The translations under genes were made by a program, and so were the position numbers. From Mycobacterium sp. SMC-8 (GTDB lineage: Bacteria > Actinomycetota > Actinomycetes > Mycobacteriales > Mycobacteriaceae), in contig NZ_CP079865.1 in assembly GCF_025263565.1 (NCBI RefSeq), positions 6,138,001 through 6,202,000 of the forward strand: a stretch of DNA of 64,000 nucleotides, read 5' to 3'. Shown one piece after another: positions 8,299 to 32,387 of the stretch. The first letter of the stretch is position 1; every line of letters starts with the position of its first letter. The notes below the pieces were generated by a model. It was not told the origin of the DNA, did not search any database, and worked only from the letters and a program-made list of their open reading frames with translations.

Positions 8299-8346
8299 TG
8301 CCCACCCCCGCTTCGCCCGCCCGGCCTGATTGAACGTGCCTCCTCC

Positions 8347-8389
8347 GGCGAAAGTGCGCTGAGATCGCGATATCTGCCGAAAGGGCGCT
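8347..8389. repeat. Short direct repeat around a palindromic core
   Basis: In the 118-bp gap before the LLM gene, GGCGAAAGTGCGCT (8347-8360) and GCCGAAAGGGCGCT (8376-8389) are direct near-repeats. They are separated by GAGATCGCGATATCT, which contains the symmetrical GATCGCGATATC. It looks like part of an intergenic repeat element; it is not recognised as any known site. Confidence 0.45.
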
Positions 8390-8416
8390 CTGTGCGCACC
8401 CTCGCTCCACCCGGCC

Positions 8417-10407: not shown

Positions 10408-10415
10408 CGATGGAT

Positions 10416-10444
10416 AACGTACTTGCAAAAAATGAGAATGCCAA
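10416..10444 (-). promoter_or_regulatory. Probable promoter of the mutase operon
   Basis: Leftward, TTGGCA (complement of 10439-10444) and TACGTT (complement of 10416-10421) are separated by 17 bp, and the ATG of the mutase is only 8 bases past the -10 box, so the mRNA would have almost no leader. The -35 and the bases after it read TTGGCATTCTCAT, close to TTGTCATTCTGAT at the leftward promoter near 5903, suggesting common control. Confidence 0.5.
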
Positions 10445-10547
10445 TACCGCCTGAGGGAAAGCCGCACGCCGCAGTGCGTGCCGACCCGCCAAAGACCCGC
10501 ATCAAACCCGGGAACACGGCGATTATGGGATTCGCCTAAAATGAGAA
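10429..10547 (+). promoter_or_regulatory. Duplicated 10-mer AAAATGAGAA in divergent promoter region
   Basis: The exact 10-mer occurs at 10429-10438, inside the leftward mutase promoter, and again at 10538-10547, just past a TAAAAT -10-like box (10537-10542) ahead of the rightward SDR. Both copies have the same orientation. It may be a regulator half-site; related GAGAAT sequence occurs in the palindrome at 5874-5892. Confidence 0.4.
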
Positions 10548-10579
10548 CGACGCTATCGGGCGTTGATGAGGAGGCCCCT

Positions 10580-11449: not shown

Positions 11450-12957
11450 GCATCTCGCTGCTGCTGGAGATGGCCACCGACGCCGACCCGGACCGGACCG
11501 CCCTGGTCTCCGACGAACTCCGGCTCACCACCGCCGAACTCAGCACCCTCGCTGACGGCGGCGCCGGGGTGATCGCGGGGTCGGGCGCCCAGCATGTCGC
11601 CTACATCGGCACCGGCGGCGCGATGCTGCCGCTGCTGTTGTTCGCCTCGGCCCGCGCCGCGACACCCGTGACGCCGCTGAACTACCGGCTGTCGGCCGAT
11701 GGGTTGCGTGCGCTGCTCGACCGGCTGCCCGATCCCCTTGTCGTCGTCGACGACGAATACCGCGATGCGGTCGGCGACGGCTATCGGACGATCGGTTCGG
11801 CGGAGTTCCTCGCCGGAGCTCGGACCGCGGATCCCGCGGCCGAGTTCGCCGACCCCGACGCGGTCGGTGTCGTGCTGTTCACCTCGGGGACGACGTCGAA
11901 GCCGAAGGCTGTCGAACTGACCCACACGAACCTCACGAGCTACATCATGGGGACGGTGGAATTCGCGTCGGCCGAGCCGGACGATGCCGCGCTGATCTGC
12001 GTCCCGCCCTACCACATCGCCGGTGTCAGTGCCGCGCTGTCGAATCTGTACGCCGGACGGAAGATGGTGTATCTGAGGCACTTCGACGCCGAGACGTGGG
12101 TGCGGCTGGTCGCCGACGAGGGCGTCACCTCCGCGACCGTCGTGCCGACGATGCTCGACCGGATCGTCTCGGTGCTGGAGGCGCGGGGCACCTCGCTGCC
12201 GACCCTGCGCACCTTGGCCTACGGCGGATCGAAGGTGCCGTTGCCGTTGGTGCGCAAAGCGTTGTCGTTGCTCCCCGGCGTCGGGTTCGTCAACGCCTAC
12301 GGTCTGACCGAGACCAGCTCGACCATCGCGGTGCTGACCCCCGACGATCACCGCGAGGCCCTGGCGGCCTCCGACGAGGCGGCCACCCGGCGGCTCGGTT
12401 CGGTCGGTCGGCCGGTGCCCGGCATCGAGGTGCAGGTCCGCGCCGACGATGGCACGGTACTGGGACCGAACCAGTCCGGCGAACTGTTCGTCCGCGGCGA
12501 GCAGGTGTCTGGCAGGTACACCGACATCGGTTCGGTGCTCGACGAGCAGGGCTGGTTCCCCACCAAGGACGTGGCCTACCTCGACGAGGAGGGCTACCTG
12601 TTCATCGGTGGCCGGTCCGATGACACGATCATCCGCGGCGGCGAGAACATCGCCCCCGCCGAGATCGAAGACGTGCTCGTGGAGCACCCGCACGTGCGAG
12701 ACTGTGCCGTGGTCGGTGCCGATGACCCCCAGTGGGGCCAGATCATCGTCGCCGTCGTGGTCGCGGAACCGGGGACCGTACCCGACGTCGAGGATCTGCG
12801 TGGCCACGTGCGGGCGCAGTTGCGCGGATCCCGCACCCCCGACCGGGTGGTGTTCCGGGACGAACTGCCCACCAACGCGACCGGCAAGGTGCTGCGCCGC
12901 GAACTCGTCGACGAACTGAACCAGGACCCATCGCCGGCACAGCCGGCCGCGACATAA
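11446..12957 (+). CDS. Acyl-CoA synthetase (AMP-binding, FadD-like)
   Basis: 503 residues. Adenylation motifs: LFTSGTTSKPKAVELTH (P-loop), NAYGLTETSSTIAVL (adenine site), WFPTKDVAYLDEEGYLF with GGRSDDTIIRGGENIAPAEI (hinge), and TNATGKVLRREL with the catalytic Lys. The GGENI/APAEI context resembles the short- and medium-chain or aromatic-type ligases. It is translationally coupled to the upstream SDR through ATGA and followed after 11 bp by a 100-residue protein with its own ribosome site. It supplies a second acid-activating activity within this island. Confidence 0.9.
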   Translation: MSISLLLEMATDADPDRTALVSDELRLTTAELSTLADGGAGVIAGSGAQHVAYIGTGGAMLPLLLFASARAATPVTPLNYRLSADGLRALLDRLPDPLVVVDDEYRDAVGDGYRTIGSAEFLAGARTADPAAEFADPDAVGVVLFTSGTTSKPKAVELTHTNLTSYIMGTVEFASAEPDDAALICVPPYHIAGVSAALSNLYAGRKMVYLRHFDAETWVRLVADEGVTSATVVPTMLDRIVSVLEARGTSLPTLRTLAYGGSKVPLPLVRKALSLLPGVGFVNAYGLTETSSTIAVLTPDDHREALAASDEAATRRLGSVGRPVPGIEVQVRADDGTVLGPNQSGELFVRGEQVSGRYTDIGSVLDEQGWFPTKDVAYLDEEGYLFIGGRSDDTIIRGGENIAPAEIEDVLVEHPHVRDCAVVGADDPQWGQIIVAVVVAEPGTVPDVEDLRGHVRAQLRGSRTPDRVVFRDELPTNATGKVLRRELVDELNQDPSPAQPAAT

Positions 12958-13367: not shown

Positions 13368-14834
13368 GTGAGGCCACGCCGCCTGCTCACCAGGTACGCC
13401 GCGGGGCTCACGTCGGCATACCTGCTGACCGTCGCCGAGGTCCTCGCGATCGTGGTAGCGCTCGCCGGCCGTCGTGTCATCACCACCGGCAACGTGATCA
13501 CCTTCTCGGTGGTCGGCCTGATCGGCACCGTCACGGTGGCGCTGGGCGCGGTCCTGATCCTCCGTCCGTCCCTGCGCTGGCTGAGCTCCGGCCGCCGGCC
13601 CACGCCCGGCGAGATCCGGACCACGGCCAAGATCATGCGCCGTCAGGCGGTCATCACGTTGTCGCCGTGGCTGCTCACCGCGGCCATCCTGGTACCGCTT
13701 AACGTGCACGCACCGGCGACGGTGTTCGTGGTGCTCACCACCGCGCTGTTGTTCGGCGCGATCGCCACCGTCACCACCGGGTTCCTGTTCACGTTGCGGA
13801 CTCTGCGGCCCCTGCTGGCGGCCGTGCCCGCCGACGCCAAACGGCCGGCCGCGCCGGGCGTGCGGGCCCGCCTGCTGCTGATGTGGCTGGCCTGTACCGC
13901 ACTGCCCGGCTCGGCCATCGCGGTGCTGCTGATCCTGCAGTCCCAGAACTGGTTGCTCAACGCGTCGTCCCCGATCGAGCTCGCGCTGCTGATACTCGCT
14001 CTGGTCGCGGTCGTGCTCGGTCTACGCTCGATGATCCTGGTGTCGATATCCATCTCGGATCCGCTCCACGAGGTGGCCGAGGCGATGGCCGACGTCGAGA
14101 AAGGCGAACTCGATCGCAGCATCGACGTGTACGAGTGGTCCGAGATCGGGCGGCTGCAGAGCGGGTTCAACCGCATGGTCGCCGGTCTGCGGGAACGCGA
14201 CAGGCTGCGCGACCTGTTCGGCCGCCACGTCGGCGAGGAAGTGGCCCGGCGGGCGTTCGAGCAGGCCGGCACCCGCAGCGACACATCCACCGGCGACGAG
14301 CGCGAGGTCGCGGTGTTGTTCATCGATCTGGTCGGCAGCACGCAGCTGGCCACCGAGCGCAGCCCCCACGAAGTCGCCGACATCCTCAACGATTTCTTCC
14401 AGATCGTCGTCGCCGAGGTCGACGGACGGCACGGTCTGGTCAACAAGTTTCAGGGTGACGCCGCGCTGGCGGTGTTCGGCGCCCCGCTGCGCATCGACGA
14501 CCCGTGCTCGGCTGCGCTGGCGACCGCCCGCGCGTTGGCCGCTCAGTTGCGGCGACTGGCAGTGGATTTCGGTATCGGCGTGTCGGCGGGACCGGTGTTC
14601 GCCGGCAATATCGGGGCCAGGAACCGCTACGAGTACACCGTGGTGGGTGACGCCGTCAACGAGGCCGCCCGGCTGGCCGACCATGCCAAGGAATTCGAGC
14701 GCCGAACCCTGTCCTCGGGTGCGGCACTGACCCGCGCGAACGAGTCCGAGCAGGCCCGGTGGGTCCCATGTGGGCAGGTCACGCTGCGCGGACGCCGCGA
14801 CCCGACCGAGATCCACACCCCGGGTGGAGGTTAG
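13368..14834 (+). CDS. Membrane-bound class III adenylate/guanylate cyclase with HAMP
   Basis: 488 residues. Six hydrophobic segments cover roughly residues 10-220, a HAMP linker follows (ISDPLHEVAEAMADVEKGEL), and the cyclase domain runs from about 310. Metal aspartates are in VLFIDLVGST and KFQGDAALAVFG, the latter with the substrate Lys of the K-x-x-G-D pattern. The transition-state Asn/Arg are in VGDAVNEAARL. This matches the M. tuberculosis Rv1318c-Rv1320c/Rv3645 layout, which makes cAMP at the membrane. It sits among lipid-catabolic genes in its own transcription unit. Whether the membrane part senses a lipid is not shown here. Confidence 0.92.
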   Translation: MRPRRLLTRYAAGLTSAYLLTVAEVLAIVVALAGRRVITTGNVITFSVVGLIGTVTVALGAVLILRPSLRWLSSGRRPTPGEIRTTAKIMRRQAVITLSPWLLTAAILVPLNVHAPATVFVVLTTALLFGAIATVTTGFLFTLRTLRPLLAAVPADAKRPAAPGVRARLLLMWLACTALPGSAIAVLLILQSQNWLLNASSPIELALLILALVAVVLGLRSMILVSISISDPLHEVAEAMADVEKGELDRSIDVYEWSEIGRLQSGFNRMVAGLRERDRLRDLFGRHVGEEVARRAFEQAGTRSDTSTGDEREVAVLFIDLVGSTQLATERSPHEVADILNDFFQIVVAEVDGRHGLVNKFQGDAALAVFGAPLRIDDPCSAALATARALAAQLRRLAVDFGIGVSAGPVFAGNIGARNRYEYTVVGDAVNEAARLADHAKEFERRTLSSGAALTRANESEQARWVPCGQVTLRGRRDPTEIHTPGGG

Positions 14835-19768: not shown

Positions 19769-20821
19769 TCAGCGCCACCGCGCCCACACATACGGGACCA
19801 GCGAGCGCAGGAACTCCAGGTCGGGTCCCGGCACCGCCGCCGTGAAGGCGTGCTCGAAGTAGTCCTCCGCGACGAGCAGGATGCCCTCGGCGTACTCGCG
19901 GGTGTACTCGATGCTGCCGTAGTCGTCCATCAGTCGACGCACCTCGGTCACCATCTCCTGGGTGCGCTGCGTCCGCCCGCGGCGCAGATAGTCGGCCAGC
20001 ACTTCTCGGTCGGTGCCGGTGGCCGCCGACACCAGGTGCATCAGCGGCAGGGTCCGTTTGCCCTCGTACAGGTCGCCCAGGATCTCCTTGCCGTACGTTC
20101 GTTCGTCGCCGACGAGGTTGAGCAGGTCGTCACGGATCTGAAACGCCGCACCGAAGTGAAACCCGAAGCCCACCAACGCTGCCAGGTCCGCGGTTCCCCC
20201 TGAGCCGACCAGAGCTCCGACGCGTAGCGGGTGAATCGTGGTGTACCAACATGTTTTCCGCATGATCAGGTCTAGGTAGTCGGCCGGACCGAGATCCTCG
20301 ACCCGATCGAGCTGCCAACCGACTTCGATGGCCTGCCCCTCCAGCGTGCGCATCGCCATGGTGTCGAACTCGTGCCACACCAGATCGGCCAGTTCGTCGT
20401 CGAGTTGCCTTGTCGCCCTTCGGAGCACCTGGCTCGCCACCACCGCGAGACCGTCGCCGGCATTGAGCGCCGCGGCGATGCCGTGCGCCGCGGCCAGCGT
20501 CGGTCTGCCACGGCGCATCTGACTGCCGTCGGCGATGTCGTCGTGCACCAGGAACGCATTGTGCAGCAATTCGATCGCGATCGCGATGTCCAGCACGGCA
20601 TCCGGTCCGGCCCCGAACGCGCGACTCGCCGCCAGACACAGCGCCGGCCGAAGCGCCTTGCCGGGGCGCGACGGATACTCGCGCATCGGCGCATACAGCC
20701 ACTCCACCGGCTCTCCGTCGGGAATCGCATCGAGCATCCCCCGGCGGACGGTCTTGGCCACGCTACGCAGGTGATCGTCGACCTCACCGACCAATTCGTT
20801 CCGATCGACGGTGCCGGTCAC
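19769..20821 (-). CDS. Polyprenyl diphosphate synthase
   Basis: 350 residues from a GTG at 20821 that overlaps the preceding stop (GTGA). The first aspartate-rich motif HDDIADGSQMRRGRPT and the second QIRDDLLNLVGDE define trans-isoprenyl diphosphate synthases; YPSRPGKALRPAL carries the conserved GK and R for pyrophosphate binding. The residues just before the first motif (ELLHNAFLVHDD), with only moderately bulky side chains, suggest a C20-C25 product, but length cannot be fixed by eye. Mycobacterial relatives are IdsA/GrcC. It probably makes the prenyl donor for the desaturase-like flavoprotein gene of the divergent operon. No prenyltransferase or phytoene synthase is in the window. Confidence 0.92.
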   Translation of the reverse strand: MTGTVDRNELVGEVDDHLRSVAKTVRRGMLDAIPDGEPVEWLYAPMREYPSRPGKALRPALCLAASRAFGAGPDAVLDIAIAIELLHNAFLVHDDIADGSQMRRGRPTLAAAHGIAAALNAGDGLAVVASQVLRRATRQLDDELADLVWHEFDTMAMRTLEGQAIEVGWQLDRVEDLGPADYLDLIMRKTCWYTTIHPLRVGALVGSGGTADLAALVGFGFHFGAAFQIRDDLLNLVGDERTYGKEILGDLYEGKRTLPLMHLVSAATGTDREVLADYLRRGRTQRTQEMVTEVRRLMDDYGSIEYTREYAEGILLVAEDYFEHAFTAAVPGPDLEFLRSLVPYVWARWR

Positions 20822-21507
20822 GACGCACCCTGCCCGAGCACCAGAACCAGCGGCAGCCACACGCCGGGGTGCCCGTCGACCAGAATCATGCCGCGGTAGG
20901 TGCCCGCAGCGGTGTGCCGTGGCAGCTCGAATTGCACGGTGATCCCCCGACTGCTACGCCCCGGCATCGGTACGATCTCGGGCTCGAACCCCGCCACCTC
21001 GGAACCGATGGTCCCACCGTGGTCCGCCAGCAGCCCTCCGCATCGCAGCCTGATCTTTCCCAAATCAACGGAACCGCTGTTACGCAACCACAGCTCTGCG
21101 GTTGCTACACCGGTCGGTGCCGCTGTCAGCTGCACGCATCCCGACGCCGTCGCCGTCGCCAGATCGAGCGTGGGTTCGGCCGGGGCGGACGGTTGCTCGC
21201 GCTGCTGTACAGGCAGTTTGAGGAACTGGTCGACCATGGCCCACCACGATGCCACGAACGGCTCCAGTCCGGTGGCCCCGAACAGGTCCGTCTGATCGTG
21301 ACCGCCCGACGGGGTCACCGGTTGGCCCGGTTGACCGTAGGCACCGATGCCGGCTGAGGCCATCCTGACGAACCGGTCGACGAGTTCGCTCGCAGCGCGG
21401 AAGCCGTCGGCCTGAATTGCGCTGAGCGCCCGTAGGTTTGCTGCGGAATCAAATACCGCTGCCCACGGGAGTTCGTTGCTGGATCTGCCTCCGCCCCCTG
21501 CGTCCAT
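20818..21507 (-). CDS. Unknown protein: helical N-terminus plus Ig-like beta domain
   Basis: 229 residues. The first 110 or so look helical (FDSAANLRALSAIQADGFRA, SELVDRFVRMASAGIG, SWWAMVDQFLKLP) with a Gly/Pro/Gln-rich link. The last 110 residues look like an immunoglobulin-type beta sandwich (VATAELWLRNSGSVDLGKIR, RHTAAGTYRGMILVDG). There is no signal peptide or membrane helix. It is the first gene of the leftward pair with polyprenyl diphosphate synthase, translationally coupled by GTGA, and divergent from the 467-residue protein. I do not recognise a family. The two-part plan is shared with the 179-residue protein at 22990. Confidence 0.8.
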   Translation of the reverse strand: MDAGGGGRSSNELPWAAVFDSAANLRALSAIQADGFRAASELVDRFVRMASAGIGAYGQPGQPVTPSGGHDQTDLFGATGLEPFVASWWAMVDQFLKLPVQQREQPSAPAEPTLDLATATASGCVQLTAAPTGVATAELWLRNSGSVDLGKIRLRCGGLLADHGGTIGSEVAGFEPEIVPMPGRSSRGITVQFELPRHTAAGTYRGMILVDGHPGVWLPLVLVLGQGAS

Positions 21508-21589
21508 GCGCTTCGCCTCCCTCGAATTTAACGCGCGCCAACGCCTCTATGACGGTATGCTAGCTGCGCATACGACAGCAGGAGGGGGC

Positions 21590-22993
21590 ATGTCGGTACT
21601 GCGCGCGATACTCGAATTGCAAGGATCTCTGGACACCGCGACCGTCCGGACCGGCGACCCGAGCGTCGCCGAGATTGCCGACCGATTCCTCCCCGGCAGC
21701 TCGTCGACCCCGGAGTGGTACCGGGAACTGCTCGCGTTCATGCTCCCCGGCGCCCCGCAGGTCGACGCCGATCCCACCAACGCGATCCTGGCACTGCAGG
21801 AGACGGACTCCACACCGACCGTGCCGGAGCAGGCGCGATTGATCTATGCCCTGGGCGCGGTGATTCACCTGACCAGCAACGTCCCCGACGGTGTCGTGCT
21901 GCCGTTCGACGACCCCACCACCGGGCCGGCCAGGAGTGCTCTGATCTCGTTGCTCGGTCCGACGTTTCCCGAACCATCCGGCTCGCAACGTCCGGCCGAC
22001 CCTCAGGCGCTCCAGCACGAAGGGGACGAACTGCAAACGATCATCGGTCTTTTCGACCAGCAGTTCACCGGATGGCAGGATTGGGACGACGTCGCGCAGC
22101 AGCTCGTCGCGCTGGGGGTGCTCTCCGCCGACGCCGCCGCGGTGCCGCTCTGCCGGCCGTCGGTGGTGTCGATCGGCGGGCGGGACGCGATCGTCGTCGA
22201 CACGGATTTCACCTCCCAGGAGGTATCCCTCAATCAGGTCAAAGGCGTTGCCGATCCGCGGAATTGGGACGAGAACTACCCCGCATTCTTCTGCCACATG
22301 GAGTACCGGAATCTGCGTCCCGACGGTTGGCGGCGGGTGCTGGAGACAGTGGGGATCTGTGCGTTCCCGCCGCCGATCGGCATCCAGCTTCACACCATGC
22401 TGAAGTTCTTCAAGACCACGGTGGATCTGCCCGGCAGCCACAGCGCGCGTTTGGACTACGACCTCAACGACCCCCTTCCGGATCCGGACAGCGACGGCCG
22501 CATCACGATCGACCGCGGCTACATCAACATGTGGGCCCCCCAGGGCAACCCCGACGTGCCGCCGGTGGCGGTGCGCACCCGCAAGGTGGTGCGTATCGAG
22601 GGTATGCGCGCCTTCACCCAGGGGCGGTTCGTCTGCATATTCGGATATGCTTACGCCACAATGGAAATGCTTTTCGGGTCGGCGAAGCGTCCGCCGGAAA
22701 AGGGCGAGTACCGCTGGCCGTGGCTCGACGCCCCCGAGATCCCCGACAACGCAGCGCAGTCCTCGCCTGCGCAACCCCCGGACAACTCGGCGGCATCGAC
22801 TGTCATCACGATGGCCGTCCAGTGCGTCGAGGACATGACCACCAGACATCTCGACGTGACCGACAAATGGATGTCGGGTCAGCTCACCCTGGCGGACCTG
22901 GCGCAGTACAGCGCCGAGGTCGGCGCGCGCATCGCCAGCGAGCCGTGGCGGATCATGCTGGCCCTGTCGAAGCCGAAGGGAGGCGCGAAATGA
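21590..22993 (+). CDS. Unknown 467-residue protein
   Basis: ATG 21590 was chosen because AGGAGGGGG stands just upstream; earlier in-frame ATGs would run into the divergent gene. TATGCT (21556-21561) may be the -10 box. The protein has a mixed helical N-terminal third, a central segment with VVDTDFTSQEVSLNQVKGV and NWDENYPAFFCHMEYRN, and a beta-rich part (RLDYDLNDPLPDPDSDGRIT, RTRKVVRIEGMRAF). It ends in helices (TTRHLDVTDKWMSGQLTLAD). The middle could be a START-like lipid-binding fold, but that is a guess. No signal peptide is seen. It is the first gene of a four-gene overlapping operon. Confidence 0.8.
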   Translation: MSVLRAILELQGSLDTATVRTGDPSVAEIADRFLPGSSSTPEWYRELLAFMLPGAPQVDADPTNAILALQETDSTPTVPEQARLIYALGAVIHLTSNVPDGVVLPFDDPTTGPARSALISLLGPTFPEPSGSQRPADPQALQHEGDELQTIIGLFDQQFTGWQDWDDVAQQLVALGVLSADAAAVPLCRPSVVSIGGRDAIVVDTDFTSQEVSLNQVKGVADPRNWDENYPAFFCHMEYRNLRPDGWRRVLETVGICAFPPPIGIQLHTMLKFFKTTVDLPGSHSARLDYDLNDPLPDPDSDGRITIDRGYINMWAPQGNPDVPPVAVRTRKVVRIEGMRAFTQGRFVCIFGYAYATMEMLFGSAKRPPEKGEYRWPWLDAPEIPDNAAQSSPAQPPDNSAASTVITMAVQCVEDMTTRHLDVTDKWMSGQLTLADLAQYSAEVGARIASEPWRIMLALSKPKGGAK

Positions 22994-23529
22994 CCGGCCC
23001 GACCAATCCCATCGACGCAAACAGGGCGACGACGCAGAAGCTCATCGAGGACACCAGCCGGCTCTGGAACACCGCCGCCGAACAGAGCGACTCGGCCGAA
23101 GGGCTGGGCATCGACGGCCGGATCGGTCTGGTACACGGTCTGATCGACGCGTGGGTCAAGGCATATGTGGCATTTCTGGAGACCCTCATCAAGGGCGGCG
23201 CCTGCCTTCCGGTGCCCTCGACGCTGGGCCCACCGCTGCCCTCTGAGGAGATCACCGTCGCACCAAGGACATTCCCGCGCACCCTGGAATTCGTCGGACC
23301 GCTGGTCCGGGTCGGCCTGCCCAAGGTCACGGTCCAGCCCCCCGCCGTGGCCTTCGACCCGCCGTTCCTGCCCGCAGGGATCGACAAGTTCCGGATCGTC
23401 CTCGTTGACCACAGGTTCATCGGCTCGAACTACGCGGGCACCGTGCGGCTGAGCAGTTCGGCCGGCGCGACGAACCTGTCGCCCCAGGATTTGGTGCCCG
23501 ACGAGGTGTCGGTCACCGTCGGGCTGTGA
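22990..23529 (+). CDS. Unknown 179-residue protein, helical plus beta
   Basis: Starts with the ATGA overlap on the previous gene and ends with a GTGA overlap on the next. The first 75 residues are helical (TTQKLIEDTSRLWNTAAEQS, GLVHGLIDAWVKAYVAFLET) and could coil like a phasin. The rest is proline-rich and then beta (DKFRIVLVDHRFIGSNYAGT, VRLSSSAGATNLSPQDLVP). It resembles the 229-residue protein of the divergent arm in plan. No known domain is recognised. Its position fixes it as part of the polyprenyl/flavoprotein system. Confidence 0.8.
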   Translation: MTGPTNPIDANRATTQKLIEDTSRLWNTAAEQSDSAEGLGIDGRIGLVHGLIDAWVKAYVAFLETLIKGGACLPVPSTLGPPLPSEEITVAPRTFPRTLEFVGPLVRVGLPKVTVQPPAVAFDPPFLPAGIDKFRIVLVDHRFIGSNYAGTVRLSSSAGATNLSPQDLVPDEVSVTVGL

Positions 23530-26500
23530 GCGACGACGACGTCCACACCCCGATCGACGATCTGTTGACCAGGGCGGTACAGGCGATCAACCGTGGCGAC
23601 CGGCGGACCGCCGACGCACTCGCCGACCAGGTTCTGGCCGTGGACGGGGATAACCAGGAGGCCGAGGATCTGCTCACCGCACCCGATGAGCAGGGTGAGA
23701 TGCGCAGGCTGACCATCATGTTCGCCGACCTGGTCGACTCGACGGCGTTGTCCACCCGCGTCGAACCCGAGGTGTACCGCACGGTGATCGGGCGCTACCG
23801 CGAGGAGGTCGTCCGCCTCGTCGACCACTACGAAGGCCACATCGCGTCCGTCAAGGGCGATGGTCTGCTCGCACTCTTCGGGCATCCGAAGGCCCACGAG
23901 AACGACGCGCATCGCGCGGTGTACGCCGGCCTGGACATTGTCCGTGCGATAGCCGAACTCAGCGAGCGGGTGCGGCGCCGGTTCGGATTCGGCATCAGCG
24001 TGCGGGTGGGCATCCACCGCGGGCTGGTGTACCTCGACACCGTCCAGGACGACATCTACGGTCTTGGGGCGAATTTCGCCGCGCGGGTGTGCAGCGTGGC
24101 CGATCCCGGCTCGGTCGCGGTGTCCGAGTCGATCGAACTCGTCGTCCGTGACACCTTCCACACGGATGTGCGCGCGGCGCAGGCCGTGAAGGGCGTGCCC
24201 GAGCCCATCACGACGTTCCGCGTCACCGGGGAACGCGACGTGCTCGTCAGCACCACAGGGCCGCTCGTCGGCCGCGAGCCCGAACTGGAGCATTTGCGGT
24301 CGTGTTGGCAGCTGGCCCGGCACCACACGCTCGGCACGCCCGGGGTCGCGTTCCAGGGTGAGGGGGGTGTGGGCAAGACGCGACTGGCCTACGCCGCGGT
24401 CGAGATGGCTGCGCGGGACGGCGCGGTGGTGCTCGGGTTGTTCGGATCCCCGTTCCACGCCGATGTCGGTCTGCGACCGGTGCGGCGACTTCTGGAGCGC
24501 CGCTGCGGGATCCAGCGCGAAAGCAACCCCGCCCAACGGCTGCGCGCCTTGGAGAACGAGGTGCTGCAGCGGTCGTTGAGCCCCGAGACGGTCGTCCCGC
24601 TGCTGGCACCCGTGTTGGGCATCCGGGCCGAGAGCGGGTACCAGGCCGTCCAATCCGAGGGTGCGAAGTTGTCGGCGCGCATCGCCGGTGCAGTCCAGGA
24701 TTATCTGCGCGCCTGCATCGATTCCGGCCCGGCCCTCGTCCTTGCCGACGACGTGCACTGGTTCGACCCCGACACCGTTGCCGTCCTGAAGACGTTGCTC
24801 GGCATCGAGACCGGAAAGCTGATGGTGGTCATCACCGGCCGCACCCTGCCACCACTCGGTGACCGCGTCACCGAGTTCTCGGTGCAACCGCTCGACGAGG
24901 CCGAGGCCGACGAACTGGTCGGCAAGCTGCACCCCGAACTGTCCGGCGACGCGCGCCGGGCGGTCCGCGCGCGCTGCGACGGCATCCCGCTCTACATCGA
25001 AGAGGTCGTCGCGCGTCTGAAGGATCAGCCCAGGGGCGACATCCGGGCGACTGCGGTTCCCGACACACTCTATGAAGCCCTCTTCGCCCGCCTGCACACC
25101 GATCCCGACGCATTGCGCTTCGTGGGCGCTGCCGCGCTGATCGGCAGCAGGTTCGATCGGGGGCTGTTATCCCGGGTGCTGGGGCTCGACCTCGACGCGA
25201 TCGAGGCGACTCTGACCGGCCTGGCACAAGCCAGGGTGGTCGAACCTGTCGACAAGGAGAGCTGGCGCTTTCGTCACGAACTGCTGCGCGAGGTGGCGGT
25301 CGAGGTGTCTCCCCCGACCGTGCGCCGCCGACTGCACAGCCGCATCGCCGACGCCCTCGTCGCCGGCGCCGATCGCGCCGACCCCGAATGGTCCTTGCTC
25401 GCCCAGCATTACGAGTCGGCGGCACGATACGGTGAGGCGGCCACCGCGTACGAGCACGCGTCGACCGACGCCCGCCGGCGCGGCGCGCTGACCGAGGCGC
25501 GGGCCCATCTGGCCAAGGCATTGGCCGATGTCGCCATGGACAAACCTGGCCCGGCCCGGGATCACCGTGAGATCGAACTTCGTTTGGAGTCAGGCCATCT
25601 CGCGTCCGCGGCACAGGGTCATTCCAGCCCGGAGGCGGTCGCCGAGTTCGAGCGTTGTCTGGAGCTCATCGGTCCGGATCCGTCACCTGAGCTCTACGCC
25701 ACGTTGAATGCGTTGTGGATCTACTACACGGCCCGGGGGGACCTGCGCCGTAGCACCCAACTCGCCGAGACGCTGCAGGCCAAGGTGGACAAGTCACCGA
25801 AAGCCGCACCGGGGATGGCCACCACCATGGGAATCTTGGCCGGTTTCCGTGGCGATTTCCACGGTGCGCGGGACATGCTGGAGAAGGCGGCGGCCTCTGT
25901 CCTGGACTCGTCGGCGCAGTCCTCGTTCACCTACTATGGCCCGAACGATCCGATCGGTGGCATGTACTCGTTCCTCGCCTTCGTGCGGTTCGTCCAGGGC
26001 GATCTGGACGGCGCCGAGGACGCTTTGAAACTCATGGAAGCGCGCAGCTTGGCGGTCGGATTCCCGAAGGGCGCCTTCAGTTTGTGCTACGGACGATCCA
26101 TCGAGGCGCTGGTGCGATCTGAGTCCGGCCAGCCCGCTGTCTGCGCCGACCTCGCCTCCGGACTCGTCTCCCTGGCAAAGCAATACGACTTCGACGAATG
26201 GGTGATGGTCGGATGGAGCCAACAGAGTTCCGGACTCGCGATGGCCGCGCTCGCCGACGGCCGGACCGATCGCGCCGTCCTGGAACCTCACATCGAGACA
26301 ATGCGGACGGTCGTCCGGACGTGGCGGGCCTTCGAGGTGATGACATTCCTCGCAATGTCCGATGCCGTGCTCGCCCGGCTGCTGATCGCTGTCGGTGATC
26401 TGGACGAGGCCCGTGAATGCCTCGATGTCTCGCTGAAGATGGGGCAGGACACCTGGATTCAGTTCTACGACGCCGAACTGCTGCGGCTTCGCGCGCAGAC

Positions 26501-26714
26501 ATTCCCCGACCAGCAGGCACGGCATGAACAGCTGCGCTCCTCGCTTGAGCTGGCCCGTAGACAAGGGTCCCATCTTCTCGGACTACGCTCTGCCATCGAC
26601 GATTTCGTCCTCACGGGCGATGCCGCCCGGCATGCGCTGCGCGATGCGCTCCAGCGGCTGCCGGAAGATTCGGCACTGCCGGAGGTCTCGCGTGCCCGAA
26701 CGCTGCTACGGTGA
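23526..26714 (+). CDS. Cyclase-AAA ATPase-TPR signalling protein
   Basis: 1062 residues. A short TPR-like N-terminus (1-55) precedes a class III cyclase domain (about 58-240) with metal aspartates in IMFADLVDST and KGDGLLALFG and the Asn/Arg in GLGANFAARV. An ATPase follows, with Walker A GEGGVGKTRLAY near residue 278 and Walker B ALVLADDVHWFD near 400. A long TPR-type helical C-terminus has no LuxR HTH. The Lys that selects adenine in adenylate cyclases appears shifted (ASVKGDG), so nucleotide preference or activity is uncertain. Embedded in the polyprenyl/flavoprotein operon by GTGA overlaps on both sides, it is probably its regulator or power source. Confidence 0.88.
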   Translation: MSDDDVHTPIDDLLTRAVQAINRGDRRTADALADQVLAVDGDNQEAEDLLTAPDEQGEMRRLTIMFADLVDSTALSTRVEPEVYRTVIGRYREEVVRLVDHYEGHIASVKGDGLLALFGHPKAHENDAHRAVYAGLDIVRAIAELSERVRRRFGFGISVRVGIHRGLVYLDTVQDDIYGLGANFAARVCSVADPGSVAVSESIELVVRDTFHTDVRAAQAVKGVPEPITTFRVTGERDVLVSTTGPLVGREPELEHLRSCWQLARHHTLGTPGVAFQGEGGVGKTRLAYAAVEMAARDGAVVLGLFGSPFHADVGLRPVRRLLERRCGIQRESNPAQRLRALENEVLQRSLSPETVVPLLAPVLGIRAESGYQAVQSEGAKLSARIAGAVQDYLRACIDSGPALVLADDVHWFDPDTVAVLKTLLGIETGKLMVVITGRTLPPLGDRVTEFSVQPLDEAEADELVGKLHPELSGDARRAVRARCDGIPLYIEEVVARLKDQPRGDIRATAVPDTLYEALFARLHTDPDALRFVGAAALIGSRFDRGLLSRVLGLDLDAIEATLTGLAQARVVEPVDKESWRFRHELLREVAVEVSPPTVRRRLHSRIADALVAGADRADPEWSLLAQHYESAARYGEAATAYEHASTDARRRGALTEARAHLAKALADVAMDKPGPARDHREIELRLESGHLASAAQGHSSPEAVAEFERCLELIGPDPSPELYATLNALWIYYTARGDLRRSTQLAETLQAKVDKSPKAAPGMATTMGILAGFRGDFHGARDMLEKAAASVLDSSAQSSFTYYGPNDPIGGMYSFLAFVRFVQGDLDGAEDALKLMEARSLAVGFPKGAFSLCYGRSIEALVRSESGQPAVCADLASGLVSLAKQYDFDEWVMVGWSQQSSGLAMAALADGRTDRAVLEPHIETMRTVVRTWRAFEVMTFLAMSDAVLARLLIAVGDLDEARECLDVSLKMGQDTWIQFYDAELLRLRAQTFPDQQARHEQLRSSLELARRQGSHLLGLRSAIDDFVLTGDAARHALRDALQRLPEDSALPEVSRARTLLR

Positions 26715-28756
26715 CCCGGAAGCGGCAACGGGTCGCCGTCCTCGGCGGCGGCATGGCGGGCCTGACCGCAGCATGGCGGCTCAGCGAACCCGGGTGGCGG
26801 GACCGTTTCGAGTCCATCACGGTGTATCAGCGGGGGTGGCGGCTCGGCGGAAAGGCGGCATCGAGCCGCGGTGTGCACGGCCGTATCGAAGAGCACGGCC
26901 TGCACGTGTGGCTGGGATGCTATGAGAACGCCTTTGTGGTACTACGGGAGTGCTACGCCGAACTCGACCGCGCCACAACGGATCCGAACTCGCCTATCCA
27001 GTCCTGGGACGATGCCTTGGTGCCGGCGCACTCGTTGGGTATCGCCGAGCGGTCGGGCGAGCGCTGGCTGGTGTGGCCCGGCCGGCTCGCCGCCGACAGC
27101 GAACTACCTGGCGAACCGGACTCGACCGGCACCGAGTTCACTGCTGTCGACTTCGCGCTGCGCGCCATGGCGCTCGTCGTCGCCTTCGTCGACTCGCTCA
27201 CCACGTCGGCCGATGCGTCGTCACCCACCGCAGAGCTGACACGACAGCTCGAGGCGATCCGCAGCGTGGCGACCGTGGTCCTGACGGGTCTGATCAAGCC
27301 GCCGGCACCGCTGACCGTGCCCGCCGACATCCTGCTTCGCGCCCAGGACGTGATCGCCGACGCTCTCGACCACGACCAGCCTCTCGAGACCCGTCGGCTG
27401 TTACTGCTGGTCTCGATGGAGACCGCCGTGGTGCACGGCATCATCGCCGACGGTCTCGTAACCGACCCGAAGGGATTCCGCACCATCAACGACGAGGATT
27501 TCTGCACGTGGATCACCCGGCACGGCGCACACCCGGGTGTCGTCGATTTCCCCCTCGTGCGCGGACTGTACGACATCGTCTTCGGCTACGAGGACGGCGA
27601 CGTCGGACGGCCCGCACTGGCCGCCGGTGTCGCCGTCCTGCTGACCGGCATCGCGCTGTTCCGGTACAAGGGGGCGTTCTTCTGGAAGATGACCGCCGGT
27701 ATGGGCGACATCGTCATCGCCCCCATGTACCAGGTGCTGCGGCGGCGCGGAGTGCGGTTCGAGTTTTTCCACCGCGTCGACTCCCTTCACCTGGACGGAT
27801 CGCGGCAGGCCGTCGAGGCGGTGACGGTGGGGCGGCAGGCCCGGTTGGCCGGGGGTGTCACCGAATACGAACCGCTCACCAGGGTCGGGGGCCTGCCGGT
27901 GTTCCCGGCCCGTCCGCTGGCGCGACAGCTCGACGGCGGTGCGCGCCTCGAAGATGCCGAGTCCCACTTCTGCGAGCGAGCCGATGTCGAAGTCCGGGTG
28001 CTGCGCCGGGGTGTCGAGTTCGACTCGGTCGTGCTTGCCGTCTCACTCGGAATGGTCGAACTCGTGGCGGCCGAGCTCGTCGCGGACAACCCGCAGTGGC
28101 GTGACATGACCACGCATGTGCGCACCGTCGCCACGCAGGCATTCCAGCTGTGGCTGCGGCCCGAGGAGGCGGCTCTCGGGTGGGACCTTCCCGGTGTCAC
28201 CACCAGCGGCTACGTCGCGCCATTCGACACCTGGGCGTCGATGCCGCAGACGCTGTGGGCCGAACAGTGGCCCGACCACGACCGCCCCGGAACCGTGGCC
28301 TACTTCTGCGGTGCGCTGAACACTGTGTGGCCCAACACTGTTGAACCGGCAGATTACGTCGCCCAGTGCCGGCGGCAGACCCTCGACGGCGCCGTCGGTT
28401 ATCTGGACAGCCATGTCGGGTTGTACCTTCCGGGCGCGGCCACCGCCGACGGCTTCGCCTGGCATCTGCTTGCCGGCAATGACGGGCTGTGCGGCATCGA
28501 GGCTCTGCAGACCCAGCACGTCAGCGTCAACATCGACCCGTCGGATCGATATGTGCTGTCTGTCCCCGGTTCCGACAGATATCGGCTCCGTTCCGACGAG
28601 AGCGGCTACGACAACCTCGTCCTCGCCGGCGACTGGACCGATACCGGTCTGAACGCCGGATGCATCGAAGCGGCGGTCATCTCGGGCCTGCAAGCCGCCA
28701 ACGCGCTTCTCGGCCGCGGCCAGCGGCACCGTATCCGCGGGTTCTTCATGCCCTGA
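26711..28756 (+). CDS. Large FAD-dependent oxidoreductase, carotenoid-desaturase-like
   Basis: 681 residues from GTG 26711 (GTGA overlap). VAVLGGGMAGLTAAWRLSE is the FAD-binding Rossmann motif. TVYQRGWRLGGKAASSRG and IEEHGLHVWLG follow as in desaturases and monoamine oxidases, and the C-terminal NLVLAGDWTDTGLNAGCIEA closes the FAD site. The family usually has about 500 residues; here about 150 extra, mostly helical, residues follow the first 110. Partners in the divergent set make prenyl diphosphates, so an isoprenoid substrate is a reasonable inference, for example desaturation or dehydroxylation of a polyprenyl chain. No phytoene or squalene synthase is seen. Confidence 0.87.
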   Translation: MTRKRQRVAVLGGGMAGLTAAWRLSEPGWRDRFESITVYQRGWRLGGKAASSRGVHGRIEEHGLHVWLGCYENAFVVLRECYAELDRATTDPNSPIQSWDDALVPAHSLGIAERSGERWLVWPGRLAADSELPGEPDSTGTEFTAVDFALRAMALVVAFVDSLTTSADASSPTAELTRQLEAIRSVATVVLTGLIKPPAPLTVPADILLRAQDVIADALDHDQPLETRRLLLLVSMETAVVHGIIADGLVTDPKGFRTINDEDFCTWITRHGAHPGVVDFPLVRGLYDIVFGYEDGDVGRPALAAGVAVLLTGIALFRYKGAFFWKMTAGMGDIVIAPMYQVLRRRGVRFEFFHRVDSLHLDGSRQAVEAVTVGRQARLAGGVTEYEPLTRVGGLPVFPARPLARQLDGGARLEDAESHFCERADVEVRVLRRGVEFDSVVLAVSLGMVELVAAELVADNPQWRDMTTHVRTVATQAFQLWLRPEEAALGWDLPGVTTSGYVAPFDTWASMPQTLWAEQWPDHDRPGTVAYFCGALNTVWPNTVEPADYVAQCRRQTLDGAVGYLDSHVGLYLPGAATADGFAWHLLAGNDGLCGIEALQTQHVSVNIDPSDRYVLSVPGSDRYRLRSDESGYDNLVLAGDWTDTGLNAGCIEAAVISGLQAANALLGRGQRHRIRGFFMP

Positions 28757-28759
28757 CGC

Positions 28760-30016
28760 TCAGTCCAGCCGCGCGACGTCGAACGTCACCCCGGCCGCGC
28801 GCAGCCGCGCAGCCAGCACCTCGCCCATCGCCGAGGCCGGCGTCAGCACCCCGGCGCGGTCCGGCAGCCGGTCCCGCTCGAAGGCGAGTGCGAGCGCGCC
28901 CTCTCCCAACAGCACTGCAGTGGAGGCATATCCGGGATCGGCGCGCTGGCCCATCCGGGCCACATACCGCCTGCCGTCGCTGGTGACGGCGTACGTCTCG
29001 ACTCGGTAGTGGCCGGTGCCCGTGTCGTCACGCGAACCGACCGTCGTCCGTGAGGTCATGGCTTCCAGAACGCCGGGAGGGATCATCTGCAAGTACGGGC
29101 CGCCGAGTGTGGCCGCGGCGCTGATGGTCGCATTGGTCATCAGCGCCATCACCGGCGCCGCCGCCGAGCAGCCCATGCTGGCGGCCTCGCGGTAGCGGAA
29201 CCGCCGCCCGTACCTCCAGTTCAGCAAGGCATTGCTGCGGCGCACGCACCGGGTGTTGTAGAGCGCCATCAGATATCCGCTGGTCCACAGTCCCGCCAGT
29301 TCGGGCGCGAGCTCCTCCCCCCGCTGCAACGACAGATCGGGCTGCGGGCCCAGATCAGGCTCGGCAGAACGGTTGGGGCTCAGGCTGTACGGATCGTCGA
29401 GGAGTTGCCGCATGTCAGGGTCACCGGAGCCCGCGCGCATCAGGGACAGCATGGTTTCCACGCTCCCCCGCGAGAATCCGGCGGCGTAGTTCGCCGACCT
29501 CAATACGCACGTGGTGTCGCCCAGCTCGCCGCCGCCGTCGGCGGTCAGCTGACGGTGCAGCGCGTAGACGGTCAAGTCCGACGGGACCGAGTCGAAGCCG
29601 CACGAATGCACGATCCGGGCGCCGGTGCCCGCCGCCGCCCGGTGACAGCGGTCGATGCTGGTGCGGACGAACGGGATCTCGCCGGCCACGTCGACGTAGT
29701 CGGTGCCTGTCGAGGCGCACGCTTGAACCAGCGGCAGACCGAGACGACCGTACGGGCCGACCGTGCTGACGACCAGCCCCGACCTGACCACGATCTGGGC
29801 GAGCCGTGCCGGATCGGTCAGGTCGGTGCGCAGCAGGGGCCAGTCCGCGGCCGGCGCCCCCAGCGCTTCCCGCAACGCGCCCAACCGCTGCTCCGACCGG
29901 CCCGCCAGACCGATGCGCGCGTCCGGCCAGGCGGCGGCGAGGTATCGGGCCGTCAGCGTGCCGACGGACCCGGTGGCCCCGAAGAGCACGATGTCGAGGT
30001 CGCGGCCGGCCCGCAT
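28760..30016 (-). CDS. Saccharopine-dehydrogenase-fold protein, trans-acting enoyl reductase type
   Basis: 418 residues from ATG 30016. LDIVLFGATGSVGTLTARYL is the nucleotide-binding motif, VVSTVGPYGRLGLPLVQACA and TDYVDVAGEIPFVR follow, and VHSCGFDSVPSDLTVYAL is the family hallmark. M. tuberculosis relatives are Rv2449c and Rv2953, the latter a trans-acting enoyl reductase for phthiocerol and glycolipid synthesis. No polyketide synthase is nearby, so the partner is unknown. It converges on the flavoprotein gene with three bases between the stops and diverges from the SRPBCC gene. Confidence 0.85.
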   Translation of the reverse strand: MRAGRDLDIVLFGATGSVGTLTARYLAAAWPDARIGLAGRSEQRLGALREALGAPAADWPLLRTDLTDPARLAQIVVRSGLVVSTVGPYGRLGLPLVQACASTGTDYVDVAGEIPFVRTSIDRCHRAAAGTGARIVHSCGFDSVPSDLTVYALHRQLTADGGGELGDTTCVLRSANYAAGFSRGSVETMLSLMRAGSGDPDMRQLLDDPYSLSPNRSAEPDLGPQPDLSLQRGEELAPELAGLWTSGYLMALYNTRCVRRSNALLNWRYGRRFRYREAASMGCSAAAPVMALMTNATISAAATLGGPYLQMIPPGVLEAMTSRTTVGSRDDTGTGHYRVETYAVTSDGRRYVARMGQRADPGYASTAVLLGEGALALAFERDRLPDRAGVLTPASAMGEVLAARLRAAGVTFDVARLD

Positions 30017-30120
30017 GGTGGCGACGCTACCGCAGCGGTGCTGCCGCCGCCGGGGACTCGTGACGCCGAGTTCCGGTGCGTCTTCGCCCATCCGAGGGCG
30101 CGACCGACTTGGATGGGCCC

Positions 30121-30567
30121 ATGGCCGACATCAGCCGCCGTCGTTGCGTTCCCTCCGCCCCCGAGGAGGTGTGGGGGTTGCTCGCCGATTTCGGCGCGCT
30201 GGCCACATGGGCCGACGACGTCGACCATTGCTGCCTGCTCAACGGCGACGAGGGTTCGGGACCTGTCGGGCTGGCCCGCCGAGTTCAGCGCGGCCGCCAG
30301 ACCTTCGTCGAGACGATCGTGGAATTCGACGCCCCACATGTCCTCGCCTACCGGGTCGCCGGTGTGCCGAAGGGTTTCTCGGTGACCAACCGCTGGAACG
30401 TGGCGCGCGGGCCCGGGGACGCGACTACGGTGACCCTGACGAGCACGATCCGGTCGTCGCATCCCCTGTGGCGTCCCGTCGCCGAACGCGCTTTCGCGGG
30501 GTTGATGGCACGGAACTCGAGCAGGCTGCTCGACTCGCTGGTGAACACCGTGGAAGGAACGGCATGA
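30121..30567 (+). CDS. SRPBCC (polyketide cyclase/START-like) protein
   Basis: 148 residues from ATG 30121. The pattern ISRRRCVPSAPEEVWGLLAD, FGALATWADDVDHCCLL and FVETIVEFDAPHVLAYRVAG is the helix-grip fold of small ligand-binding SRPBCC proteins. No catalytic residues can be assigned. Its stop overlaps the start of a sulfatase by four bases (ATGA), so the two are co-translated; the ligand may relate to the sulfatase substrate or product. Confidence 0.82.
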   Translation: MADISRRRCVPSAPEEVWGLLADFGALATWADDVDHCCLLNGDEGSGPVGLARRVQRGRQTFVETIVEFDAPHVLAYRVAGVPKGFSVTNRWNVARGPGDATTVTLTSTIRSSHPLWRPVAERAFAGLMARNSSRLLDSLVNTVEGTA

Positions 30568-32387
30568 CCTCCGAACGGCCCGACATCGTCGTCATCATGA
30601 CCGACGAAGAGCGTGCGGTCCCGCCGTACGAGCCCGACGACCTCCGTATGTGGCGTGACCGGACGTTGAGCGGCCGAAAATGGTTTCACGACAACGGGGT
30701 CAGCTTCACGCGCCACTACACGGGCTCACTGGCCTGCGTGCCGTCCCGGCCTACCATCTTCACCGGCCAGTATCCCGATCTGCACGGCGTGACGCAGACC
30801 GACGGCATCGGGAAGGCCCATGATGATTCGCGGCTCAGATGGCTACGCCCCGGTGAAGTGCCCACCCTCGGGCACTGGCTGCGTGCCGCTGGTTATGACA
30901 CCCACTATGACGGCAAGTGGCACATCTCGCACGCCGACCTCACCGACCCGCAGACCGGCAAGTCGCTGGCCACCAACGACGACGACGGGGCGGTCGACCA
31001 GGCCGCGGTGCGCCGCTACCTGGATGCCGATCCGCTGGACGCGTACGGGTTTTCGGGCTGGGTGGGCCCGGAACCGCATGGTGCCAAGCTGTCCAACGCG
31101 GGCATCCGCCGTGATCCGTTGATCGCCGACCGGGTGGTGGCCTGGCTCGAAGACCGCTACGCGCGACGCCGCGCGGGTGACCCCGCCGCTCTGCGACCGT
31201 TTCTCGTGGTGGCCAGCTTCGTCAATCCGCATGACATCGTCCTCTTTCCGGCCTGGGCACGCCGCAACCCGCTGCCCGCATCGCCGCTGGACCCTCCTCC
31301 GGTGCCGGCCGCGCCCACCGCGGACGAGGATCTGTCCGGCAAGCCCGCCGCCCAGATCGCGTTCCGCGAGGCGTACTACTCCGGCTACGGTCCGGCACGG
31401 TCCATCGAGCGGACCTACCGACGCAACGCCCAGCGCTACCGGGACCTCTACTACCGGTTGCACGCCGAAGTGGACACCCCGATCGACCGGGTGCGCCGCG
31501 CCGTCACCGAGGGCGGGACCGGAGCCGGACCCGACGACACCGTGCTGATTCGTACCGCCGATCACGGTGATCTGCTGGGCGCGCACGGTGGGCTGCACCA
31601 GAAGTGGTTCAACCTCTACGACGAGGCGACCCGGGTTCCGTTCGTCATCGCCCGGGTCGGCAGCCGCGCCACCATCGCGCGGAGCATCACCGCGCCGACG
31701 TCGCACGTCGATCTCGTTCCGACCGTGCTCTCGGCGGCCGGCGTCGACGTGGAGGCGGCCGCCGCCCTCCTGATGGAGTCGTTCTCCGAGGTTCATCCCC
31801 TGCCCGGCCGCGACCTCATGCCCGTCGTCGACGGTGACCGGCCCGACGACCACCGCGCGGTGTATCTGATGACGCGCGACAACATGCTGGAGGGTGACAC
31901 CGGCGCCTCGGGGCTGGCCCGCGCCTTGAAGCTGACCTCGAATGTCCCTGCGCCGCTGCGTATCCGGATCCCAGCCCATACGGCCGCCAATTTCGAAGGG
32001 CTGGTGGTGAGGGTCGAGGAAGAGGCGCCCGCGCCCGAGCGCGGGCATCTGTGGAAACTGGTGCGGTCGTTCGACGACCCGGGCACGTGGACCGAGCCGG
32101 GGGTTCGTCATCTCGCCGCCGACGGCATGGGCGGACCCGCCTATCGAACCGACCCGCTCGACGACCAATGGGAGCTCTACAACCTCACCGACGACCCGGT
32201 CGAGGAACACAACCGGTGGACCGATCCCGAATTGCACGAGCTGCGCGCCCACCTGCGCGCGCGACTGAAACAGATTCGCGCCGAATCGATTCCGGAGCGC
32301 AATGAGCCCTGGCCCTACGTCCGGCGACAGCCGCCGCAACGGGCCCCGTGGACACCGGCGCGCGCGTTGCGACGGCTGCGCCGGTGA
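30564..32387 (+). CDS. Type I sulfatase
   Basis: 607 residues. DIVVIMTDEER starts the alkaline-phosphatase-like metal site, and Cys58 in LACVPSRPTIFTGQYPDLHG is the C-x-P-x-R signature that is converted to formylglycine. GKWHISHADL and RTADHGDLLGAHGG hold further metal and sulfate residues. There is no signal peptide, so it should act in the cytoplasm on a small sulfate ester, arylsulfate or choline-sulfate-like compound. A formylglycine-generating enzyme must be encoded elsewhere. Coupled to the SRPBCC gene by ATGA; its end faces the amidohydrolase gene. Confidence 0.9.
   Translation: MTSERPDIVVIMTDEERAVPPYEPDDLRMWRDRTLSGRKWFHDNGVSFTRHYTGSLACVPSRPTIFTGQYPDLHGVTQTDGIGKAHDDSRLRWLRPGEVPTLGHWLRAAGYDTHYDGKWHISHADLTDPQTGKSLATNDDDGAVDQAAVRRYLDADPLDAYGFSGWVGPEPHGAKLSNAGIRRDPLIADRVVAWLEDRYARRRAGDPAALRPFLVVASFVNPHDIVLFPAWARRNPLPASPLDPPPVPAAPTADEDLSGKPAAQIAFREAYYSGYGPARSIERTYRRNAQRYRDLYYRLHAEVDTPIDRVRRAVTEGGTGAGPDDTVLIRTADHGDLLGAHGGLHQKWFNLYDEATRVPFVIARVGSRATIARSITAPTSHVDLVPTVLSAAGVDVEAAAALLMESFSEVHPLPGRDLMPVVDGDRPDDHRAVYLMTRDNMLEGDTGASGLARALKLTSNVPAPLRIRIPAHTAANFEGLVVRVEEEAPAPERGHLWKLVRSFDDPGTWTEPGVRHLAADGMGGPAYRTDPLDDQWELYNLTDDPVEEHNRWTDPELHELRAHLRARLKQIRAESIPERNEPWPYVRRQPPQRAPWTPARALRRLRR

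Follow-up and report, generated by a model that had tools for sequence, protein, structure and literature searches.

A conserved mycobacterial gene cassette as a candidate isoprenoid-lipid system with nucleotide signalling

The subject of this study is a group of six adjacent genes, arranged as two divergent operons in a stretch of 64,000 nucleotides from Mycobacterium sp. SMC-8 (NZ_CP079865.1, positions 6,138,001 to 6,202,000), the whole of which is referred to here as the window. The genes encode a trans-polyprenyl diphosphate synthase (PPS), a cyclase-ATPase (CYC), a flavoprotein (FAD) and three further proteins named after their length in residues (U229, U467 and U179). They are a real conserved unit that goes beyond chance: other genomes carry the set in the same arrangement, and purifying selection acts on each of the six genes. 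This cassette most likely serves to make or handle an isoprenoid lipid, together with nucleotide signalling; how it would do so is read from the anatomy of the locus and from predicted folds. The cassette is apparently undescribed: no account of this gene set was found in the literature searched, a search outside whose scope most subscription papers and all bioRxiv preprints fell. A paper on M. marinum that deals with idsB2 and the mevalonate pathway mentions, in the part of it available, neither adenylate cyclase nor vaccae (PMC12632256).

Conservation of the cassette

A U467 profile, run against a genome collection that covers 84,980 species, yielded 22 loci, of which 21 were titled Mycobacterium or Mycolicibacterium and one was a 3.6-kb contig of a metagenome-assembled genome titled Nocardiaceae. 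Conservation was assessed in 22 complete loci, namely those besides the window that span the whole region, including L034, L038, L039 and L040 (L, G, C and P numbers are our own handles); left out of this count were the contig-cut loci L006, L016, L019 and L020, the short loci L023–L032, and L037, which apparently duplicates L010 (both contigs have a length of 138,032); L033, L035 and L036 also stand outside it. PPS, FAD, U229 and U467 were present in 22/22 complete loci, CYC in 21/22 and a recognisable U179 in 19/22. The sole locus without CYC is L017, in which FAD comes directly after U179 (L017 11410-14043), and in L034 FAD precedes CYC. A different open reading frame occupies the U179 slot in L022, L034 and L039, where U179 was unrecognisable by tblastn; the comparison with the U179 profile covered the slot frames of L022 and L034 and gave a weak hhalign match for each (E 7.9e-5 and 2.2e-4, respectively).

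The preliminary description of the window had proposed that the six products form one set, and this was borne out not only by the shared layout but also by shared presence and by selection. G002, chosen as a cassette carrier, was the centre from which 251 genomes of its family were drawn. FAD was found in six of these (G002 being counted among them), U229 in the identical six, and U467 in those six and in G040, where the match starts at base 63 of a contig that looks like that of L016. The scattering of the unknown proteins without the synthase and the flavoprotein, which the preliminary description had named as the observation that would speak against a system, was not seen in these 251 genomes. 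The ratio of non-synonymous to synonymous substitution rates (dN/dS) was 0.12-0.26 for all six genes between the window and L001 and 0.13-0.27 for the four genes compared with L002 (from Mycolicibacterium vaccae), indicating purifying selection in both cases. Median identity to the window was 75.6% for PPS, 65.5% for FAD, 45.2% for U229, 34.4% for U179 and 33.4% for U467; the enzymes are conserved while U229, U179 and U467 drift, yet dN/dS lay at 0.12-0.27 in every comparison made. Three window proteins match records of Mycobacterium sp. 4D054 at 99-100%.

A distant version of the cassette was found in another class of the same phylum. When 396 genomes of the phylum were screened, a flavoprotein match was obtained in six, including G442, whose locus (L033) carries in order a Crp-type regulator directly upstream of the distant cassette (4234-4899; Pfam cNMP_binding 1.2e-25), a 518-residue protein, CYC (30%), FAD (45%) and a 548-residue protein in which a U229-type domain (hhalign E 3.4e-9) is fused to PPS (53%). 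The middle of the 518-residue protein matches U467 (hhalign E 9.3e-8); its C-terminal region is Ig-like by eye, a by-eye reading because hhalign of U179 against this protein gave nothing useful. U467 and U179 are likewise joined in single natural chains (e.g. P0092 and P0095, from alignments), and U179 gives a weak hhalign match to the U229 domain (E 0.016). From the fused and co-located version in L033 it follows that both arms seen in the window belong to one system. The recurrence in unrelated actinobacteria for which the preliminary description had called was thus encountered once, with the partners naturally fused; a class-level search around G442 found the cassette in 1/24 genomes, G442 itself only, and next to the flavoprotein relatives of G510 (L035) and G612 (L036) tblastn detected neither PPS nor U229.

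An arrangement of chance neighbours, or of adjoining but unrelated operons, would agree with the fact that the divergent arms share merely an 82-bp region and with the failure of tblastn to recognise U179 in three loci. However, gene order is kept down to 25% identity, and the fusions, the shared presence set and the purifying selection all argue against such an arrangement, which we regard as wholly improbable; chance adjacency is indeed already refuted by the co-occurrence. A viral or plasmid origin was also rejected, because no relative of U467 was found among the viral contigs and plasmids searched, at the sensitivities used; FAD has distant plasmid relatives only.

The encoded proteins

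In the translations and the raw sequence the six frames and their two divergent operons proved exact to the base (Table 1), as did the four 4-bp stop/start overlaps (GTGA on the left arm; ATGA, GTGA and GTGA on the right arm) and the gap separating the arms, all as first described. This gap holds a conserved element around GGTATGCTAGCTGCGCA (the TATGCTAGC element), a putative promoter; TATGCTA was present in 23/25 loci examined and was not found in the other two, L004 and L038.

Table 1. Features of the cassette region, numbered from the first letter of the window
Feature	Position	Strand	Description	Basis
PPS	19769-20821	-	trans-polyprenyl diphosphate synthase, 350 residues, GTG start	Pfam, motif alignment
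U229	20818-21507	-	229 residues; helices (N-terminal, predicted at low confidence) and C-terminal Ig/MSP/PapD-like domain	model, Foldseek, VIA
Divergent region	21508-21589	no strand	82 bp between arms; conserved element facing right arm	
U467	21590-22993	+	467 residues; helical N-terminal part, START/SRPBCC core ~184-373, long C-terminal helix hairpin 401-460	
U179	22990-23529	+	179 residues; by eye helical first half, Ig-like second half	alignments
CYC	23526-26714	+	1062 residues; class III nucleotidyl cyclase domain, AAA_16 ATPase, C-terminal weak TPR matches	Pfam, motif alignment
FAD	26711-28756	+	681-residue flavoprotein, HpnE / phytoene-desaturase-like superfamily	Pfam, NCBIfam, motif alignment
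SacDH	28760-30091	-	saccharopine-dehydrogenase-like NADP-binding protein, convergent with FAD, start codon provisional	Pfam Sacchrp_dh_NADP 1.5e-10

PPS belongs to the Pfam family polyprenyl_synt (2.8e-56; 191 bits against a gathering score of 27), and its first Asp-rich motif, DDIAD (within HDDIADG..RRG), fits DDxxD. The second Asp-rich motif has the canonical form DDxxD, of which variants are tolerated; in PPS it reads DDLLN, and DD[LVI]LN was seen in 25/26 rows, the L013 row being unreadable there. In L013 itself (8170-9215, from a Mycolicibacterium litorale record) PPS lies in two overlapping frames, owing either to a disrupted gene or to an error in sequencing. Four host genomes were compared with the window PPS, to which the cassette copy was 52-79% identical and the other synthases 31-38%; judged by these identities, PPS is an extra, dedicated synthase of its hosts.

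FAD matches the Pfam families Amino_oxidase and NAD_binding_8, and in an alignment of 33 rows few exceptions were seen to a dinucleotide GGG motif, GWRLGGK, RIEEHG[LI]H and AGDW. In CYC, Pfam recognises Guanylate_cyc (1.2e-19), AAA_16 (1.1e-14) and weak TPR. Two Asp residues and an Asn/Arg pair, to which we assign, as presumed, the metal-binding and transition-state roles respectively, are kept in 24/24 mycobacterial rows (both L010 and L037 included), as is expected of a class III cyclase. Outside these rows, L033 keeps the catalytic residues, L042 is without the Asn, and the row of L046, where the cyclase is at the other end, is not comparable.

The preliminary description had called U467, U179 and U229 proteins of no recognised family. 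It is correct that none of them has a Pfam or NCBIfam match above cut-off, but two have folds that are recognisable once modelled: the core of U467 matches the START/SRPBCC lipid-binding fold (at 3-15% identity to such proteins among the matches listed), and the C-terminal domain of U229 is Ig/MSP-like according to the model, Foldseek and VIA. The structure prediction that had been suggested for the unknown proteins therefore assigned folds to these two, U179 being read by eye only. In a comparison with phasins and lipid-droplet coat proteins no Pfam or NCBIfam match was obtained, the resemblance of the helices being by eye alone.

A seventh gene and the chromosomal context

The six-gene set first described was incomplete, for SacDH accompanies it in most loci, lying convergent to FAD in 18/22 complete loci (not in L005, L022, L034 or L039). 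It does so in more than one chromosomal context, and SacDH is a probable seventh gene of the cassette. Past it lies a gene for a 163-residue Polyketide_cyc2 / SRPBCC protein (30076-30567, + strand; Pfam 4.4e-21), a second START-type protein that need not belong to the cassette. Two further features were noted in the window: a protein with HAMP and nucleotidyl cyclase domains about 5 kb from the cassette (13368-14834, + strand; Pfam HAMP 1.5e-9, Guanylate_cyc 8.4e-15), and the sole Rfam match above gathering score, to the Mycobacterium small RNA Ms_AS-5 (30735-30779, - strand; 52.1 bits against 46).

The location of the cassette, which the preliminary description had also missed, is itself cassette-like. 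In 17/22 complete loci the genes lie between eccB, assigned by a score above the cut-off of the EccB equivalog TIGR03919, and a CGNR-regulator gene, a slot that we take to be the ESX-4 neighbourhood. Beyond eccB is a subtilase gene, mycP-like by eye, and beyond the CGNR gene are EamA and, mostly, then cutinase genes; rpoA is also within reach in L034, L038 and L040. With the cassette in place the gap between eccB and the CGNR gene measures 9,454-10,411 bp, apart from L009 (13,344 bp) and L012 (12,815 bp), in which extra DNA separates PPS from eccB, and L017 (7,226 bp), which has no CYC. In the window, L001 and L002 the cassette is beside a TetR-type gene instead, and no eccB was seen in L004, L005 and L039.

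The slot was surveyed in 60 genomes of the genus at a strict eccB match limit of E 1e-100, which gave 23 strong matches. In three of these genomes the cassette PPS adjoined eccB and in nine the CGNR gene did so directly, at 69-114 bp, so that an empty slot exists (cassettes elsewhere in those nine genomes were not searched for); the others had a partial CGNR match at 1.1-1.3 kb (four), a cutinase gene (five) or none of these (two). Because the limit was strict, the 37/60 genomes without a hit say nothing on the slot; G004 is among them though its locus L013 carries eccB.

Proposed function

In our current working model the genes, passed on as a cassette, form a compact isoprenoid-lipid system in which a START protein would be the carrier, Ig-type proteins the tethers and the cyclase-ATPase the sensor; in this specific form we put its chances at about even. 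To judge from its family and motifs, PPS would produce a linear prenyl diphosphate; FAD may act as a dehydrogenase, and the SacDH-like protein perhaps as a reductase, on a prenyl chain or one derived from it. The predicted START pocket of U467 could hold a hydrophobic intermediate and pass it between the enzymes. U229 and U179, with their helices and Ig-like domains, might tether PPS and U467, the proteins to which they are found fused, to each other or to a surface, and the architecture of CYC suggests that it senses a ligand or the assembly state via its AAA_16-TPR part and replies with a cyclic nucleotide. The conserved layout, the shared presence set, the fusions, the START fold of U467 and the dedicated PPS speak for this model, as do the Crp regulators that adjoin the L033 version and, in the plasmid region L042, a flavoprotein and cyclase. 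The cassette flavoprotein presumably belongs to COG3349. According to the accessible part of one report (PMC4558948), cyanobacteria have a phytoene/squalene synthase clustered with a phytoene desaturase that is placed in COG3349, which we also count in favour. Of the prenyl-lipid pathway under nucleotide control that had been suggested in the preliminary description, perhaps on a lipid body or membrane, the lipid theme (the START fold) and the nucleotide control (the cyclase domain, and Crp beside two distant versions) find support in outline; a prenyl product and the lipid-body or membrane site are conjectural.

Several observations weigh against the model. No recognised terpene cyclase or squalene/phytoene synthase is among the six proteins, and because no SQS_PSY gene is in the set and none was found in 4/14 hosts the substrate of FAD is not evident; SQS_PSY genes were found in 10/14 cassette hosts and not in G002, G005, G008 and G442 (drafts included). 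SacDH is missing from four of the complete loci. At the positions that by the consensus would specify the substrate, presumably setting the choice of ATP or GTP, the window CYC has Ser and Leu instead of the canonical Lys/Asp and looks non-canonical, and the absence of CYC from L017 means that the sensor is dispensable, or supplied elsewhere. The lipid-handling role of U467 would derive from a modelled fold, and a fold shows no function.

A further point comes from the wider relatives of the flavoprotein: of 7,993 candidates that were scored, 4,717 reached E <= 0.001. Such relatives are carried by 11/72,556 plasmid records from four genera, and five plasmid regions spanning all four (L042-L046) were examined. 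On these plasmids of other phyla, acetoacetate-decarboxylase-like proteins are adjacent to the flavoprotein in L043 and L044 (Pfam) and L045 (annotation) and fused to it in L042, with no synthase listed, so that the chemistry of FAD need not be prenyl. In the L042 fusion (9983-12889) the decarboxylase-like C-terminal part scores above the Pfam cut-off; the flavoprotein of L036 (7902-11165) has an extension with a weak match of the same kind (E 0.0015, below cut-off). Two Azospirillum regions have an annotated outer-membrane transport protein.

These contexts also bear on a different explanation, namely that the core is a signalling module in which a lipid-active flavoprotein is paired with an AAA_16 signalling protein and inputs and outputs are interchangeable, PPS, START and Ig proteins being an actinobacterial branch for substrate delivery. 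AAA_16 signalling neighbours were recognised in L042, L043 and L046 (Pfam) and L045 (annotation), and overall in 4/6 distinct non-cassette contexts (L035, L036, L042, Azospirillum, L044 and L046), a small sample without a random background. They comprise a cyclase-AAA_16 protein with a Crp regulator in L042, a kinase-AAA_16-GAF-PAS-histidine kinase in L043, a kinase-AAA_16-GAF-cyclase in L046 and, more weakly, an AAA_16-GAF-GGDEF protein in L035 whose kinase match falls slightly short of the cut-off. However, no AAA_16 neighbour was recognised in L036, whose two large neighbours were searched and are cell-wall and UvrC-type proteins, or in L044 (annotation), CYC is lost in L017 while the rest stays, and the contexts are six only, with identity of ~31-46% by segment. 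We consider this explanation rather unlikely. Its broadest form, a cross-phylum module of a lipid-oxidising flavoprotein wired to AAA_16 signalling with exchangeable outputs (cyclic nucleotide, histidine kinase or GGDEF), to which actinobacteria added a full substrate branch made up of a START carrier, Ig/MSP-like tethers and a prenyl synthase of its own, is a speculative and unlikely proposal; if it were true, bacteria would possess an assembly that hands over lipids and signals its own condition through a second messenger.

An anti-phage or stress-defence cassette, with CYC as a STAND-like sensor and the other genes acting on membranes, would suit the patchy presence (6/251), the one favoured slot and the fast drift of the three partner proteins, and PADLOC PycC models do match the cyclase domain of CYC. 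However, the lipid-enzyme content and the lack of a convincing PADLOC effector match make this improbable. No Pycsar effector model matched any of the six proteins scanned; apart from PycC, PADLOC gave only two weak matches, both located where the flavoprotein begins with its FAD-binding part, one to a model named as a desaturase (E 0.0085) and one of 22 residues to LmuA (E 0.036).

If the isoprenoid-lipid model is correct, some mycobacteria possess an isoprenoid pathway, so far undescribed, that has its own synthase, START- and Ig-type partners and built-in nucleotide signalling, often adjoining the type VII secretion gene eccB. The cassette offers concrete targets for seeking an unidentified lipid, two uncharacterised protein families have been assigned folds, and it becomes possible to test what is done by a large flavoprotein family that has been little studied and that in other phyla has AAA_16 signalling neighbours.

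Comparison with known systems

By the membership tests applied, the cassette falls outside HpnCDE, the family 2 encapsulins, TOMM and Pycsar. The closest curated model of PPS is that of the family 2 encapsulin polyprenyl transferase (NCBIfam, 1.7e-56), and derivation from a family 2B encapsulin polyprenyl-transferase system would also suit the cyclic-nucleotide theme, cyclic-nucleotide control having been proposed for these systems. According to the part of the source available, family 2B polyprenyl transferases have a disordered N-terminal domain of 50-100 residues and sit with shell genes (PMC8346489), whereas in PPS the synthase domain begins at about residue 40 of 350. Moreover, PPS scores 191.9 bits against a cut-off of 450, and an HK97-fold SrpI-like shell gene was not found in 11/14 hosts and was distant from the cassette in 3/14. 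In G442 two such shell genes and another prenyl synthase lie on contig C51, the cassette being on C129. Such a derivation is hardly credible, and identity as encapsulin cargo was rejected on the score of PPS and on the shell gene not being with the cassette.

CYC residues 53-1020 align with the TOMM kinase/cyclase fusion TIGR03903 (7e-81), but at 272.6 bits against a cut-off of 705.75, with the match beginning at model position 279 and no kinase domain found by Pfam in CYC. Compared with START/SRPBCC lipid-transfer and polyketide aromatase/cyclase proteins, the U467 core differs in being flanked by helical regions and in having no Pfam or NCBIfam match.

The HpnCDE squalene route includes a squalene/phytoene synthase, and no HpnC- or HpnD-type partner (PF00494) is among the six proteins. 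FAD, at 681 residues, extends ~250 residues beyond the 430-position HpnE model and scores far below its equivalog cut-off (4.1e-25; 89 bits against 283.05). Searching the hosts with this model was uninformative, matches being obtained in 14/14 hosts and in 14/14 control genomes and none over cut-off. A squalene/hopene or carotenoid cluster was rejected on the sub-cut-off scores and the missing partner enzyme. What FAD does share with HpnE and with phytoene and zeta-carotene desaturases is the FAD-binding N-terminus and the C-terminal AGDW-type motif, and HpnE is its best curated family match.

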